This document shows, piece after piece, positions 8,666-44,354 of a stretch of 44,488 bases of DNA. The stretch comes from a virus. Where the stretch lies: positions 1 through 44,488 of the IMG/VR virus record IMGVR_UViG_3300035698_008371. One strand, 5' to 3'. Position numbers and translations under genes: made by a program. The notes under the pieces were generated by a model, which saw only the letters and a list, made by a program, of their open reading frames with translations, searched no databases and was not told the origin of the DNA. Positions within the stretch are counted from its first letter, which is position 1; every line of letters starts with the position of its first letter.

Positions 8666-9657
8666 CAATGAATTTTAAACCACTTTTTTGCTCGTAGTCT
8701 AATCTTCAACGGGCTGTATTCGGCCGCAGTTGCAATACTGTATAATGTATATAGCCTTCCATAACGTGCTACTGCGTCGCTTATGTCATTACAGCTATAA
8801 TGCCACTCAGGAAGACTAACCTTCCAGTCACGATCAATTGCCATTTCTACCAACTTGCTTCCTTTGTAGTCTCTGTCCGGTACTACTATAATATCTCGAT
8901 TTAGTTTGTCTAGTAATTGTGCGTGAACATCGTTTATTTCGCTGCCGCCTAATGCACACCCTTCCACATGTATTGCATCAAATTGCCCTTCGCATACTAT
9001 TGTAAATGCTTTATCAAAGTGTTGCTGGTCCAGGCCGTATACAAACCCCGGTTGCGATTCTGTAAGGTATCGCGGATTTGTGTCTGTAGTTATTACTCTT
9101 GCTGTCCAACCTACTATACGAGATTGATAATAAAAGGGAACAATTAGTCTATCACGATAGGATAATTTTGAACTCCAGTAATAATCGGTATCAGTTAGTT
9201 GTAGATTTCTATGCGACATATATTCCATCACCGATATCCCAAACTTGTTGAAATCTTGAATTTCTAAAATTTTTACAGCACCCTCGGGTAATTCGACAGT
9301 ATCAAATGTAGGTAACTCTATTTCGCGAGTTGCTACTTCTACCCCTTCGTTGATACGCATTACATCTAATGCCAGTTGATTTATTTCTTGATCTGATGCA
9401 TTTAGCCATTGTAGTAGTTTTCGTAACTTATGTGATAGCGGGCGTCCAGGTTGCCAGCTGGCTTTGAATCCACAGTTAAAGCAAGAAAAGCTTAGTTGAT
9501 CGCCACTGGTAATTATACCTCCGCGAGCTCGAGTGTCTGCAGATTGCCCATTGTGTACACAACACGGTGCATTTCCAGAAAGCCATCCACTAGGAGTAGA
9601 CTTGGTTTTTCTACCTTGGCTCCAGTGCATAATAAGGGTGTCTGATACAATACTCAT
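8665..9657 (-). CDS. 61: DNA primase, T4 gp61 / DnaG type
   Basis: 330 aa. Makes RNA primers for lagging-strand synthesis with the gp41 helicase. N-terminal zinc-binding module: C32, C33, H35 and C59-x2-C62 (FSCFNCGFKA). TOPRIM core: VCEGQFDAI with the catalytic Glu at 223, and DRD at 261-263. RDRLIVPF (168-175) matches the primase RNA-polymerase domain. Start ATG 9657 lies five bases behind a TATAAT box, so the message is probably leaderless. Helicase-primase adjacency supports the call. Confidence 0.93.
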   Translation of the reverse strand: MSIVSDTLIMHWSQGRKTKSTPSGWLSGNAPCCVHNGQSADTRARGGIITSGDQLSFSCFNCGFKASWQPGRPLSHKLRKLLQWLNASDQEINQLALDVMRINEGVEVATREIELPTFDTVELPEGAVKILEIQDFNKFGISVMEYMSHRNLQLTDTDYYWSSKLSYRDRLIVPFYYQSRIVGWTARVITTDTNPRYLTESQPGFVYGLDQQHFDKAFTIVCEGQFDAIHVEGCALGGSEINDVHAQLLDKLNRDIIVVPDRDYKGSKLVEMAIDRDWKVSLPEWHYSCNDISDAVARYGRLYTLYSIATAAEYSPLKIRLRAKKWFKIH

Positions 9658-35413: not shown

Positions 35414-36937
35414 ATGATAATTTGTAAAATATGTAATAAGCATTTTGCTAATATGATCGGGTGGCGCCACCTGAAGTTACATAATATTACCACCGTAGAA
35501 TATAAGGCATCTTATGGCGAAGTAGTGTCTGAAGAATTTCGAAAAGCCAAACAGGCACAAGGTTTGGGAAAAAATAAGGGTAATACTCCTCATAATAAAG
35601 GCATTGCAATGAGCAATGAACAAAAGTTATTATTATCCACCGCTGCACTAGTTCGCAATCAAGCTTGGAGAGAAACCAATTCACATCCCGTTACTGGTTT
35701 AAAGCGAACTACAGAAACTAAAGAAAAAATTCGTCAAAAAAGAGCATCTCAGGTAATAACGTCGGAACAAGTACAAAAAGCAATTAATACTAAACGACGA
35801 AGCGGTAATGATTTAGCAGTATTTAGAGGTAAAACGCATTCAATAGAATCACGAAAGAAAATATCAATCTCTTCTAAAAAGGCAGCAGCAGCTAAAACAT
35901 TAAAAAGTATAACAACTGCTAGTAGTCGTCTTGAGGAGAACGGATATACTCTTTCTCATATTAGTGGAAACATTGCTACTATCAAATGCCATCGATGCAA
36001 CAATAGTTTTACTAGAACACGTCAGTATATGTCGCCTGGAAAAATATCTACTAATATATGTCCTTATTGCTACCCGGCTGCAAGTGGGACAAGTATACAA
36101 GAACAGGAAGTTGTTGCATTTCTATCCACATATAACATTTCTGTTTATCCTAATACTCGTAATGTTATTAGTCCCAAAGAAATTGATATATTTCTTCCAG
36201 AATACAATCTTGGAATTGAATATAACGGATTATACTGGCACAGCAATATTTACAAATCACCAAACTATCATCAAGAAAAAACCGAGCTTGCTAGTCAACT
36301 AGGATTGCAACTTATTCATATTTTTGAAGACGAATGGGTCAACAATACAGATATTGTAAAATCTCGATTACAATCATTAATTGGAAGATCGGATAATAAG
36401 ATTTTTGCTAGAAAATGCCAAGTTAGAGAAGTTGATTCTAAAACTGCTAACCAATTTCTCAAGCAAACTCATTTACAAGGCACAGGAAGATCTAATATTC
36501 GAATTGGTTTGTATTACAATGACCAACTAGTAAGTCTTATGACATTCTTAAATAACGATATATCTAAGAATGTTAAGGGATGGGAATTAAATAGATTTTG
36601 TAGTGTACTCAATACAAATATAATAGGCAGTGCCGGAAAACTATTTTCTTATTTTGTAAAAAAATATAATCCAGAATTAATTACTAGCTTTAGTGACCGA
36701 AGGTGGAGTAACGAAACAGCAGTTTATAGCAAATTAGGATTTGAATTTATACATAATACTGTTCCAAACTATTGGTATTTTATGCCATCCGAGTGCAAAC
36801 GATATCACCGATATTCATTAAGAAAGCCGGCTAATAGTATACTATCAGAAAAACAATTGCGGGAACAACAGGGGTATCTTCGAATATACGATTGCGGAAG
36901 CACTCGGTGGCAATGGTCATCAAAAAAGGCAGTATAA
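35414..36937 (+). CDS. free-standing homing endonuclease between gp18 and gp19, 507 aa
   Basis: On the strand opposite its neighbours. C2H2 finger at the start (C4, C7, H19, H23), NUMOD3-like helices (GKNKGNTPHNKGIAMSNEQK; RGKTHSIESRKKIS), a zinc ribbon (C192/C195/C216/C219), then the same VSR-like nuclease core as the uvsW-linked gene: EIDIF (256-260) and IEYNGLYWHS (268-277). The acyltransferase-like C-terminus (THLQGTGRSNIRIGLYY, ELITSFSDRRW, LGFEF) is also shared. The two are paralogues with different N-terminal targeting parts. Confidence 0.85.
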   Translation: MIICKICNKHFANMIGWRHLKLHNITTVEYKASYGEVVSEEFRKAKQAQGLGKNKGNTPHNKGIAMSNEQKLLLSTAALVRNQAWRETNSHPVTGLKRTTETKEKIRQKRASQVITSEQVQKAINTKRRSGNDLAVFRGKTHSIESRKKISISSKKAAAAKTLKSITTASSRLEENGYTLSHISGNIATIKCHRCNNSFTRTRQYMSPGKISTNICPYCYPAASGTSIQEQEVVAFLSTYNISVYPNTRNVISPKEIDIFLPEYNLGIEYNGLYWHSNIYKSPNYHQEKTELASQLGLQLIHIFEDEWVNNTDIVKSRLQSLIGRSDNKIFARKCQVREVDSKTANQFLKQTHLQGTGRSNIRIGLYYNDQLVSLMTFLNNDISKNVKGWELNRFCSVLNTNIIGSAGKLFSYFVKKYNPELITSFSDRRWSNETAVYSKLGFEFIHNTVPNYWYFMPSECKRYHRYSLRKPANSILSEKQLREQQGYLRIYDCGSTRWQWSSKKAV

Positions 36938-40878: not shown

Positions 40879-41643
40879 TTATCCAATTACAAAATAATAT
40901 CCAGTCCCGCCGGCCATTGCTTGTGCTAATTCGTTTTCTAATTTTTCTATTTCTGCTTGTGCTTCGGCTTTTAACGCATCGCCGTTAAGCGAAGTTCCGC
41001 CTTGCGGTCCAGCAACTACACTAAACTTACTACGAGCTTCGCCTAACATATATTTACAGCTTGCAAGAGTGTAATCTCTTAGCCATTGCTTTGCCAGATA
41101 GTCAGTTAATAATTGGCTATCTGGACGATAGTTGTAACACCATAGTAATACTTCTTCACCAGCTCTGGGTCTTTGTAATATAGTAAGTTTCTTTGTTGCA
41201 GTATTCCATCGAAATTCTATAAAGCTACCAAACATTCTGCCAACTAATTCTTGCTTGCCAGCAAATAGTTCATATGTAGCAAGCCCGCCCATACCAGATC
41301 CGGCTAACAGGTATGTATTAGTATAAGCAAGATTAAACGGATCGAACAATGTTCCTCCATCGCCGCCACCGCTACGACTTCCTACGCTACGTCTAAAAAT
41401 TTGACGTACTTCGATAATCTCATGCGGTAATGTATAATCATTCTGATCTTCTACTAGCTTAAGAGAAATATAACTTTCTTCGACACTGCCGTCACTACGT
41501 TGTCGGTACTTTGCAAGTGCTCGTTCTAGTCCAGTTTCGTAATGTATAGGATCTAATTCTACGTCAATCATAGATCCGCCTAACATGGCGTTTACATAAT
41601 TAAATACTTGTTGTTTTTGTGTTACTAATTCATTATCGGCCAT
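40879..41643 (-). CDS. 13: neck protein, gp13-like
   Basis: 254 aa from ATG 41643 (GGAG seven bases upstream). Blocks ADNELVTQKQQVFNYVNAML, MIDVELDPIHYETGLERALAKYRQRSDGS, EVRQIFRR, LVGRMFGSFIEFRW and GEARSKFSVVAGPQGGTSLNGD are, from memory, those of the neck protein usually numbered gp13 in cyanophages and pelagiphages. Neck proteins close the head vertex and accept the tail. Numbering against T4 is less certain than the structural role. Confidence 0.65.
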   Translation of the reverse strand: MADNELVTQKQQVFNYVNAMLGGSMIDVELDPIHYETGLERALAKYRQRSDGSVEESYISLKLVEDQNDYTLPHEIIEVRQIFRRSVGSRSGGGDGGTLFDPFNLAYTNTYLLAGSGMGGLATYELFAGKQELVGRMFGSFIEFRWNTATKKLTILQRPRAGEEVLLWCYNYRPDSQLLTDYLAKQWLRDYTLASCKYMLGEARSKFSVVAGPQGGTSLNGDALKAEAQAEIEKLENELAQAMAGGTGYYFVIG

Positions 41644-41658
41644 GTTGTTCTCCAACTG

Positions 41659-41666
41659 TATTTATA
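41659..41666 (-). promoter_or_regulatory. consensus late promoter for gp13
   Basis: Exact TATAAATA on the minus strand, 15 bases before ATG 41643. Confidence 0.8.
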
Positions 41667-41667
41667 A

Positions 41668-41675
41668 CATAAATA
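41668..41675 (+). promoter_or_regulatory. late promoter for gp14, divergent
   Basis: CATAAATA on the plus strand, one base from the late box on the other strand. Start near 41681, before AGGAG 41687-41691. Confidence 0.7.
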
Positions 41676-41698
41676 CTATAACACATAGGAGAATCAAC

Positions 41699-42850
41699 AT
41701 TCCGAGACTGAGCCTATACCGTCCAAATAAGACTGCCGATTATGAGTTTATCGATAAAATGATCTATGGACAATTTTCCATAGGAGGCACTGATATATTA
41801 ATACACAAATATCTAGGACCAAAAAATACCAGTATTGAAAATGCCACAGCGGATCAACCGCATTACGACGTTGTTGCCGAAACTAATATACAAGACATGT
41901 TGTTTCTTGAAAATAGAGATCGAAAATACGATCCCGATATATATTGCATACGCGGAATATACAATGTAAGTGACAACGACTTCAATCTTAGTCAATTTGG
42001 TTTATTTTTAAGTAATGATACAATCTACATGACCATACACATTAATAGCAGTGTTAAGACCATTGGTAGAAAAATTATAAGCGGTGATGTGTTAGAATTG
42101 CCTCATCTCATAGACGAATATGCATTAAACGATTACTCCGCTGCACTAAAAAGGTTTTATGTAGTAGACGAAGTTACTAGAGCCGCGGAAGGATTTAGCC
42201 AAACATGGTTTCCTCATTTATATCGCATTAAACTAAAACAAATTGCTGACAGTCAAGAATATAACGATATACTCGACTTACCAAGCGGAGACGGAGAACA
42301 CAGCTTGCGAGATATGCTGAGTACATTTGAAAAAGATATGCAAATTAATAATGCAATAGTTGCACAAGCCGAAGTTGATGCTGGTAAAAGTGGATATAAT
42401 ACCAGCCATTTTTATACGTTGCAAGTCGATGCTACCGGCAAACCGGAACTTGTTACTACAGATATGAGTACACTAGACGCCAGCAGTGGAATTTTAGCTA
42501 ATAGAATAAGTAAAAGTCCAACACGGTCTGGCTATGATGGATATTTGTTAGGCGACGGCATTCCGCCTAACGGAGAGGCATTTGGAGTAGGAATTAGTTT
42601 TCCGCCGGATAATGCTGCAGGTGACTATTATCTGAGAATTGACTTTGTTCCTAATCGTTTGTTTAGATACGACGGAACTAGGTGGTTAAAGATAGAAGAT
42701 GCAGTACGTCATACTCTTAGCAACACCGATACTAGACAAACACAAAAAAGTACGTTTATTAATAATACTAAAACTGCTACCATCGGCGGCGATGTTGTAG
42801 AAGAGAGACAAAGTTTAAGCAAGGCTCTTAGACCGCGCGCTGACAACTAA
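41699..42850 (+). CDS. 14: neck protein gp14-like, apparent ATT start, 383 aa
   Basis: The conserved N-terminus (M)PRLSLYRPNKTADYEFIDKM begins at an ATT codon, 41699-41701, seven bases after AGGAG (41687-41691). The nearest in-frame ATG downstream would delete 20 conserved residues; an upstream ATG at 41642 lies before the late promoter and inside the gp13 start. Blocks GGTDILIHKYLGPKN, NIQDMLFLENRDRKYDPD, GIYNVSDNDFNLSQFGLFL and RAAEGFSQTWFPHLYRIK match aquatic-phage gp14. Near residue 325 a YYLRIDFVPNRLFRYDGTRW module is added. Head-tail connector component. Confidence 0.8.
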   Translation: MPRLSLYRPNKTADYEFIDKMIYGQFSIGGTDILIHKYLGPKNTSIENATADQPHYDVVAETNIQDMLFLENRDRKYDPDIYCIRGIYNVSDNDFNLSQFGLFLSNDTIYMTIHINSSVKTIGRKIISGDVLELPHLIDEYALNDYSAALKRFYVVDEVTRAAEGFSQTWFPHLYRIKLKQIADSQEYNDILDLPSGDGEHSLRDMLSTFEKDMQINNAIVAQAEVDAGKSGYNTSHFYTLQVDATGKPELVTTDMSTLDASSGILANRISKSPTRSGYDGYLLGDGIPPNGEAFGVGISFPPDNAAGDYYLRIDFVPNRLFRYDGTRWLKIEDAVRHTLSNTDTRQTQKSTFINNTKTATIGGDVVEERQSLSKALRPRADN

Positions 42851-42863
42851 TTAGGAAATAGAT

Positions 42864-44354
42864 ATGCAATGGACATACGACGGTCAGATAAGACGATATC
42901 TTACTCAAATTGTACGAATGATGAGTGGGTTTTCCTACAAAGACGGTGACGGAAGATTACGAAAGATTCCAGTTGCATACGGAGATTTAACTAGACAAGT
43001 TGCTAGTATTATTCGAGATAACTCAGAAAATAAACTTCCTAGTGTACCTCGAATGAGCGTATACCTTACTGGGCTTGAAATAGATCGTAGCAGGACCAGT
43101 GATAGTAGTTTTGTTAGCAAAGTAAATATTAGAGAACGAGCATACGATTCTAACGGAAACGAATACTTAAACACGCAGGGTAAAAACTATACAGTAGAAC
43201 GACTGATGCCGTCGCCGTATACTCTTACAGTTAATGTAGATATTTGGAGCTCTAATACCGATCAAAAATTACAAATATTAGAACAAATATTAACGTTGTT
43301 TAACCCAAGTTTAGAAATACAAACTTCTGATAACTATGTAGACTGGACTAGTTTAACTGTGGTTAATTTAGAAAGAACCGAAATAAGTAATAGAAGCATC
43401 CCGGTGGGCACAGAAAGCGAAATCGATGTTGCTACTTTGGCATTTAGCACTCCTATCTATATTTCGCCGCCGGCAAAAGTAAAGAGACTAGGCGTAATTA
43501 CAAGTATTATTACAAACATATTCAATGAAGCAAACGGCGATATTGACTTGGGGTTAACTGCTCCAATTATTAACGAATATGCAGATGACTTGCCATTAAT
43601 TAATAAAGATACTGTGATATGGAACGGTATTACTGCAAAAGGAACTATAGTTAATGCCGGCGGTATACAATCAGTAACTGGTATTACGGACACTAATTCA
43701 GAAAGAGTTGCATTAATAGAAACTTTTAAGCAATACGGAGTATATATTGAATCCAATATTGCAAAACTAATATATAGAAATACCATCGGCGGTACTAGTT
43801 GGAGAACACTAATTGAAGCGTATCCAGGAACCTACCAACCTATGATTAGTCAATTACGACTGCGTCGTAGCGATAGTAACAACTCAATTGTTGGTACAAT
43901 AGAATTAAATTCTACCGACGAAACTGAACTATTAGTTACATGGGATACCGATACGCTGCCAGCTAATAGTGTAATTGAAGGTCCTTCGAGAAATTCAAAT
44001 AGCTGGACTACACTGGATTATATTATTAATCCGCAAAGATGGAATCCTGTAGACTATAAGGTATCCGGATTACGTATACTGTTACTAGACGATGTCGGTG
44101 ACGAATCTAACATCGACGGACCCGATGCATGGAAAAGTACCTTAGGCATAGACTTTGTTGCCGACATAAATGATATTATCGAATGGGACGGCGTTAAATG
44201 GAATTTAATATTTGATGCAAGTGTTAGTACCGATGTTGTCTATACCAGTAATTTAAACACAGGTATACAATATAGATGGACAGGAACTATGTGGACTGTG
44301 TCCTATGAAGGCGAATATTCACAAGGCGCATGGATGTTGTATTTAGAAGCATAA
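42864..44354 (+). CDS. 15: tail completion/sheath stabiliser gp15-like, 496 aa
   Basis: Residues 1-210 match the aquatic-phage gp15 type: YDGQIRRYLTQIVRMMSGF, VPRMSVYLTGLEIDRSRT, YTVERLMPSPYTLTVNVDIW, QKLQILEQILTLFNPSLEIQTS and EIDVATLAFSTPIYISPPAKVKR. In T4 gp15 caps the tail and is 272 aa; the C-terminal half here is an added beta-rich region with IIEWDGVKWNLIF and YRWTGTMWTV modules. It starts 13 bases after gp14 and lies in the T4 order 14-15. Confidence 0.75.
   Translation: MQWTYDGQIRRYLTQIVRMMSGFSYKDGDGRLRKIPVAYGDLTRQVASIIRDNSENKLPSVPRMSVYLTGLEIDRSRTSDSSFVSKVNIRERAYDSNGNEYLNTQGKNYTVERLMPSPYTLTVNVDIWSSNTDQKLQILEQILTLFNPSLEIQTSDNYVDWTSLTVVNLERTEISNRSIPVGTESEIDVATLAFSTPIYISPPAKVKRLGVITSIITNIFNEANGDIDLGLTAPIINEYADDLPLINKDTVIWNGITAKGTIVNAGGIQSVTGITDTNSERVALIETFKQYGVYIESNIAKLIYRNTIGGTSWRTLIEAYPGTYQPMISQLRLRRSDSNNSIVGTIELNSTDETELLVTWDTDTLPANSVIEGPSRNSNSWTTLDYIINPQRWNPVDYKVSGLRILLLDDVGDESNIDGPDAWKSTLGIDFVADINDIIEWDGVKWNLIFDASVSTDVVYTSNLNTGIQYRWTGTMWTVSYEGEYSQGAWMLYLEA

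Follow-up and report, generated by a model that had tools for sequence, protein, structure and literature searches.

Evidence for AUU Initiation of a gp14-like Neck Gene in a T4-like Phage and for Its Repeated Exchange with Predicted Leaderless AUG Starts among Relatives

The gp14 Locus and Its Neighbours

The stretch of DNA analysed here in full (the window) is the 44,488-base IMG/VR virus record IMGVR_UViG_3300035698_008371, which comes from a T4-like phage. The features of the gp14 locus are collected in Table 1. A sequence-only reading of this DNA had pointed to an AGGAG seven bases before an ATT that opens a gp14 neck gene, and this layout is present as described: PRLSLYRPNK follows the ATT in frame, and the frame remains open until the stop codon at 42848-42850. 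In T4-like late promoters, the box TATAAATA occupies positions −13 to −6 (PMC1524935); by this rule, transcription of gp14 in the window is predicted to start at 41681, leaving a leader of 18 nt.

Table 1. Features at and around the gp14 locus of the window.
Feature	Position	Strand	Evidence
gp13-like head-tail adaptor Ad2, ATG start (control gene)	40879..41643	-	phrog_211, E 6e-32
gp13 Shine-Dalgarno (SD) GGAG, 6 nt 5′ of gp13 ATG	41650..41653	-	sequence
Late-promoter box TATAAATA of divergent gp13	41659..41666	-	sequence
gp14 T4-type late-promoter box CATAAATA, 7/8 match to TATAAATA	41668..41675	+	sequence
gp14 SD AGGAG, 7 nt 5′ of ATT	41687..41691	+	7 nt spacing in 72/85 non-ATG relatives
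Predicted gp14 initiation codon ATT (AUU)	41699..41701	+	codon set seen in relatives
gp14-like neck gene, ATT start, 383 codons + stop	41699..42850	+	open frame, block alignment, phrog_11591, Foldseek
gp15-like tail sheath stabiliser, ATG start	42864..44354	+	PF16724, E 4e-24

The gp14 product belongs to phrog_11591, annotated as “virion structural protein”. Its gene is flanked by homologues of gp13 and gp15, just as gene 14 of T4 lies between genes 13 and 15, and by this synteny its identification as gp14 is sound. By fold the identification is probable: the best PDB matches found by Foldseek for the AlphaFold model, which is of low confidence (pLDDT 61), are T4 gp13/gp14 neck complexes, with E values from 1e-5 to 2e-4. 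In contrast, sequence similarity to T4 gp14 is barely detectable (hhalign probability of 4% over 41 columns), and T4 gene 14 differs also in having an ATG start.

The late-promoter boxes of gp13 (−) and gp14 (+) stand back to back at 41659-41675, one base apart, and form the near-palindrome TATTTATAACATAAATA. This divergent promoter pair is kept in relatives, with varying spacing. Elsewhere in the window, a homing-endonuclease-like gene (phrog_3339, 35414-36934, +) adjoins the tail sheath gene, the two lying on opposite strands.

The Initiation Codon of gp14

The codon preceding the PRLSLY block was scanned in IMG/VR, with NTG codons (BTG, ATG) being scanned separately from the others. The scan of codons not ending in G, with the first two bases left free, gave 107 stretches, as did a scan restricted to ATT/ATC/ATA, with ATT in 99 other contigs, ATC in 7 and ATA in 1, while with the same freedom no stretch carried a codon ending in AG, CG or GG. 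The CTG/GTG/TTG scan gave 53 stretches, about 50 of them with TTG or GTG. When checked by tblastn, the stretches from the ATT/ATC/ATA and CTG/GTG/TTG scans were nearly all found to code for gp14 relatives. In the 80 nearest IMG/VR relatives (70-82% identity), the codon is ATG without exception (80/80). All codons scanned at this position are ATG, ATT, ATC, ATA, TTG or GTG, which clearly indicates that the position is a start codon.

The spacing from the GGAG to the start is constant at 7 nt in most (72/85) of the non-ATG unique contexts. Among isoleucine codons, ATT prevails over ATC/ATA at the gp14 start by 56:3, while Ile usage within the same genes is 644:757 (p = 3e-15). The residues P2, R3, L4, S5, L6 and Y7 that follow are invariant among relatives and make up the most conserved N-terminal block. 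Judging by these comparisons, the AUU at 41699 is almost certainly the true initiation codon of gp14, as had been proposed.

It is very improbable that translation begins elsewhere, at the in-frame ATG 41642 or ATG 41759. Both are indeed ATG codons in frame, and a mechanical ORF list restricted to ATG, GTG and TTG starts opens the gp14 frame at 41642. However, the ATG at 41642 lacks an SD, lies 5′ of the site where transcription is predicted to begin and overlaps the start of gp13, and no upstream in-frame ATG, GTG or TTG exists in 67 of the 85 non-ATG relatives. The start at ATG 41759 was rejected because it would remove the invariant block from P2 to Y7. A sequencing or assembly error at 41701, considered in the sequence-only reading, is hardly credible. 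The virus is known from one contig: a near-exact pattern detected no second copy in viral and genome contig collections, and a megablast search of the window against phages gave no match. Nevertheless, the layout of an SD followed by ATT recurs in the 99 other contigs, which come from many metagenomes. Of the 94 unique contexts in which family members have the SD, 85 carry a start other than ATG, so that with such an SD in place a codon other than ATG is what one would expect to read.

Leader Type and Start Codon Go Together

We compared leader type with the start codon in at least 235 unique contexts and found that the two are tightly coupled (p = 3e-54 for the cross-table). In the leaderless class, 4 to 8 nt separate the end of the late-promoter box from the codon, which is ATG throughout (at least 136 unique contexts, 0 other); this class is a sample from the ATG scan, and its true size is larger. 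With the box so close, the mRNA is predicted to begin at about the start codon, and the transcripts of the ATG class would thus be leaderless. The strong-SD (GGAG-type) class is nearly the reverse, with 85 non-ATG starts (ATT 56, TTG 14, GTG 12, ATC 2, ATA 1) and 9 ATG starts in 94 contexts; the small weak-SD class has ATG in all 5 contexts and no other codon. A complete separate scan for GGAG with ATG yielded 16 stretches vs. 153 strong-SD non-ATG loci. By the T4 late-promoter rule, most ATG starts are predicted to have leaders of −1 to 3 nt, and non-ATG starts leaders of 13 to 44 nt. AUU had been called very rare for such a gene; in fact, no other start codon is as common as ATT in those members of this phage group that have a strong SD.

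Weaker codons tend to go with stronger SDs (rank test, p = 0.005), a trend that is not significant on the tree; a graded compensation of AUU vs. UUG/GUG by SD strength is suggestive only. Folding of the leader RNA into a structure that hides the gp14 start was no better than that of shuffled sequences.

The nine cultured jumbo relatives examined all have ATG at gp14, which indicates that the non-ATG habit belongs to the environmental lineage. Most of them also have an SD (AGGAG in PA5oct, GGAG in 121Q and RaK2), and strong initiation therefore appears to be tolerated outside the group.

Repeated Switching on the gp14 Tree

The tree was built from 200 representative gp14 proteins with the start residue left out. 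This tree requires at least 28 switches of leader type, and the pairing of SD and non-ATG thus does not go back to one old event. In 26 well-supported independent pairs differing in ATG vs. non-ATG, the SD accompanies the non-ATG member in 22.5 and the opposite holds in 0 (sign test, p ~5e-7). Among the SD-led non-ATG members, one weak start codon has been swapped for another 13 times.

The window gp14 sits among leaderless ATG relatives that have no SD, the nearest being L003 (82%). The ATT would therefore have come, along with the SD-bearing leader, in one change of the 5′ end. The origin suggested earlier, a single G-to-T change from an ATG, does not fit, since the context in the nearest kin is not equal.

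The contigs L093 and L283 carry nearly identical gp14 bodies, while their upstream DNA is unrelated and the first ~15 codons differ. A NUMOD3 endonuclease gene lies in the L093 flank, upstream of 4732, suggesting that homing has been accompanied by co-conversion of the gp14 start. Part of the gp14 leader switching may accordingly be module exchange, and with 5′ ends exchangeable in this manner not every co-switch need be a fresh adaptation. Endonuclease insertion as a general cause of SD plus non-ATG was rejected, as most members adjoin gp13 with no insert.

gp13, gp15 and Other Genes of These Phages

As a control we used gp13, which was read in the contigs that supplied gp14 and starts from the intergenic region shared with it. 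It starts with ATG in 210 of 210 relatives scored, including 93 strong-SD and 101 leaderless contexts. The retention of ATG in all 93 strong-SD contexts indicates that the non-ATG effect is specific to gp14. The start caller is biased toward ATG, yet for gp14 it finds the start in 182 of 190 cases. About half of the gp13 genes (101/210) look leaderless, and leaderless late mRNAs may, to go by promoter positions, be common in this phage group.

For gp15, most relatives (137) have an ATG start behind a weak SD, and 8 of the 44 strong-SD cases are non-ATG. Behind a GGAG-type SD, gp15 has an apparent ATT start in L107 and L152 and an apparent ATC start in L137 and L354.

Among the genes of three long records (267, 157 and 129 kb), only gp14 shows a clear SD with an ATT start and no nearby ATG. 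Genome-wide use of AUU was considered and rejected: the other SD-aligned ATT/ATA codons in these records nearly all lie beside an ATG served by the SD. No phage tRNA with an unusual initiator anticodon was found; there is one tRNA-Met(CAT) in G002 and none in the window. The 267-kb phage record (G001, contig L403) carries a tmRNA-like gene at 8987-9409, identified by ARAGORN, with the tag ANDEFALEDIRLAA.

Discussion

We consider it fairly probable, from sequence comparison, that AUU makes initiation at gp14 weak and that this weakness has been selected to keep the dose of the protein low. The late promoter would give a short mRNA, and its strong SD would dock the 30S subunit so that AUU lies in the P site. 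The fMet-tRNA would pair poorly with AUU and IF3 would discriminate against it, such that only part of the dockings lead to initiation and the amount of neck protein remains as low as a six-copy ring requires. Most relatives would reach the same low level by another route, with almost no leader and no SD, where the start must be AUG. If so, the two designs would be expected to interchange in evolution, because selection would act on the output rather than on the sequence. As proline follows, the first methionine is probably cleaved off, and the choice of start codon would therefore alter only the amount of the protein.

The gene had been taken to encode an abundant virion protein, which does not agree with T4, where gp14 is a six-fold ring in the virion neck (C6 in the PDB titles), so that little of it should be needed. 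In S. aureus, AUU/AUA starts with an extended SD work at ~10% of the AUG level (PMC13009471), and in Streptomyces the GTC start of sigR is required for maintaining a protein ratio, replacement by AUG leading to overproduction (PMC5472188). With the support of these results, we infer that initiation is low in both classes and that the dose is under selection.

Several facts count against weak initiation as a selected property: most of the cultured relatives combine ATG with an SD, nine strong-SD contexts within the group use ATG, 5′ ends can be exchanged as modules, and gp13, presumably low-copy too, shows no such restraint. Excess gp14 might be toxic or assemble off-pathway, which would be one possible reason why gp14 but not gp13 is restrained. 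The wider proposal is that stabilising selection acts on the initiation output of one virion gene, whereby a T4-like lineage toggles more than 20 times between leaderless AUG and SD with AUU/UUG/GUG, and strong SD with AUG is avoided at gp14 and less so at gp15; we see the case for it as evenly poised.

Two other explanations accept the AUU start and differ as to its role. AUU might make gp14 synthesis respond to IF3 or to the ribosome state late in infection, thus acting as a switch and not as a mere brake. Starts with AUU, AUC and AUA are indeed of the kind repressed by IF3 (PMC5472188), with infC and sigR as models. However, the canonical starts TTG and GTG, largely accepted by IF3, fill the same niche in 26 of the 94 strong-SD contexts, the leaderless AUG relatives do not have the IF3-sensitive feature, and a search of five records, some of which are fragments, revealed no phage-encoded IF3 gene. 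Such timing is accordingly quite unlikely. It is also unlikely, if slightly less so, that weakness has not been selected at all and that the SD with its non-AUG codon is a 5′ cassette inherited or recombined among phages, partly with homing endonucleases, in which AUU is merely tolerated. The pair L093 and L283, with the endonuclease gene beside one of them, speaks for such a cassette; nevertheless, 46 of the 65 strong-SD non-ATG representatives lie directly beside divergent gp13 (gap <150) and have no insert, the weak codons replace one another, and gp13 in the same contigs has never lost its ATG. Dose tuning through weak initiation, one of the possibilities raised in the sequence-only reading, is thus the best-supported role that can be suggested for the AUU start on comparative grounds.

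Several known systems resemble gp14 in part. T4 gene 26, as Nivinskas et al. reportedly described in 1992, has an internal AUU start; here, too, AUU initiates in a structural gene of the T4 type, but it gives a shorter product, whereas in the window gp14 AUU is the main start. The E. coli pcnB gene is said, after work by Binns and Masters in 2002, to start at AUU, and its dose is likewise held down by the inefficient codon; it is a cellular gene, unlike gp14, and we know of no exchange of it with a leaderless AUG form. The infC genes of E. coli (AUU) and Streptomyces (AUC) underlie autocontrol by IF3 (PMC5472188), and there a start of the AUU type limits initiation as well, but the feedback loop acts on IF3 itself, whereas the virion protein gp14 is not known to be connected with IF3. 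In sigR, a non-AUG start sets a protein ratio, as would be the case for gp14; the codon (GTC) is different, the product is a regulatory protein, and dependence on IF3 has been shown by experiment (PMC5472188). The closest in layout are S. aureus cvfC1 (AUU) and ccpN and infC (AUA), where an extended SD (PMC13009471) similarly combines a strong SD with a conserved non-AUG start and an output of about a tenth of that of AUG. These genes are cellular, and the pairing exists in one form, with no toggle to a leaderless one.

The combination of a non-AUG start with a strong SD is therefore already known from S. aureus cvfC1 and ccpN, while its recurrent toggling in a virion gene appears to be new: a conserved non-AUG start repeatedly exchanged with leaderless AUG in a virion gene was not found in the literature searched, a body that leaves most subscription journals outside. 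If the proposal is true, these phages offer a natural series of more than 20 independent swaps converging on one translation output, and a test bed for the trade-off between SD strength, leader length and start codon; it would also mean that a conserved virion gene can have AUU as its usual start codon. For annotation, gene finders limited to ATG, GTG and TTG misplace the gp14 start in these phages, and in the window their first choice falls 19 codons upstream of the ATT, before the predicted promoter.
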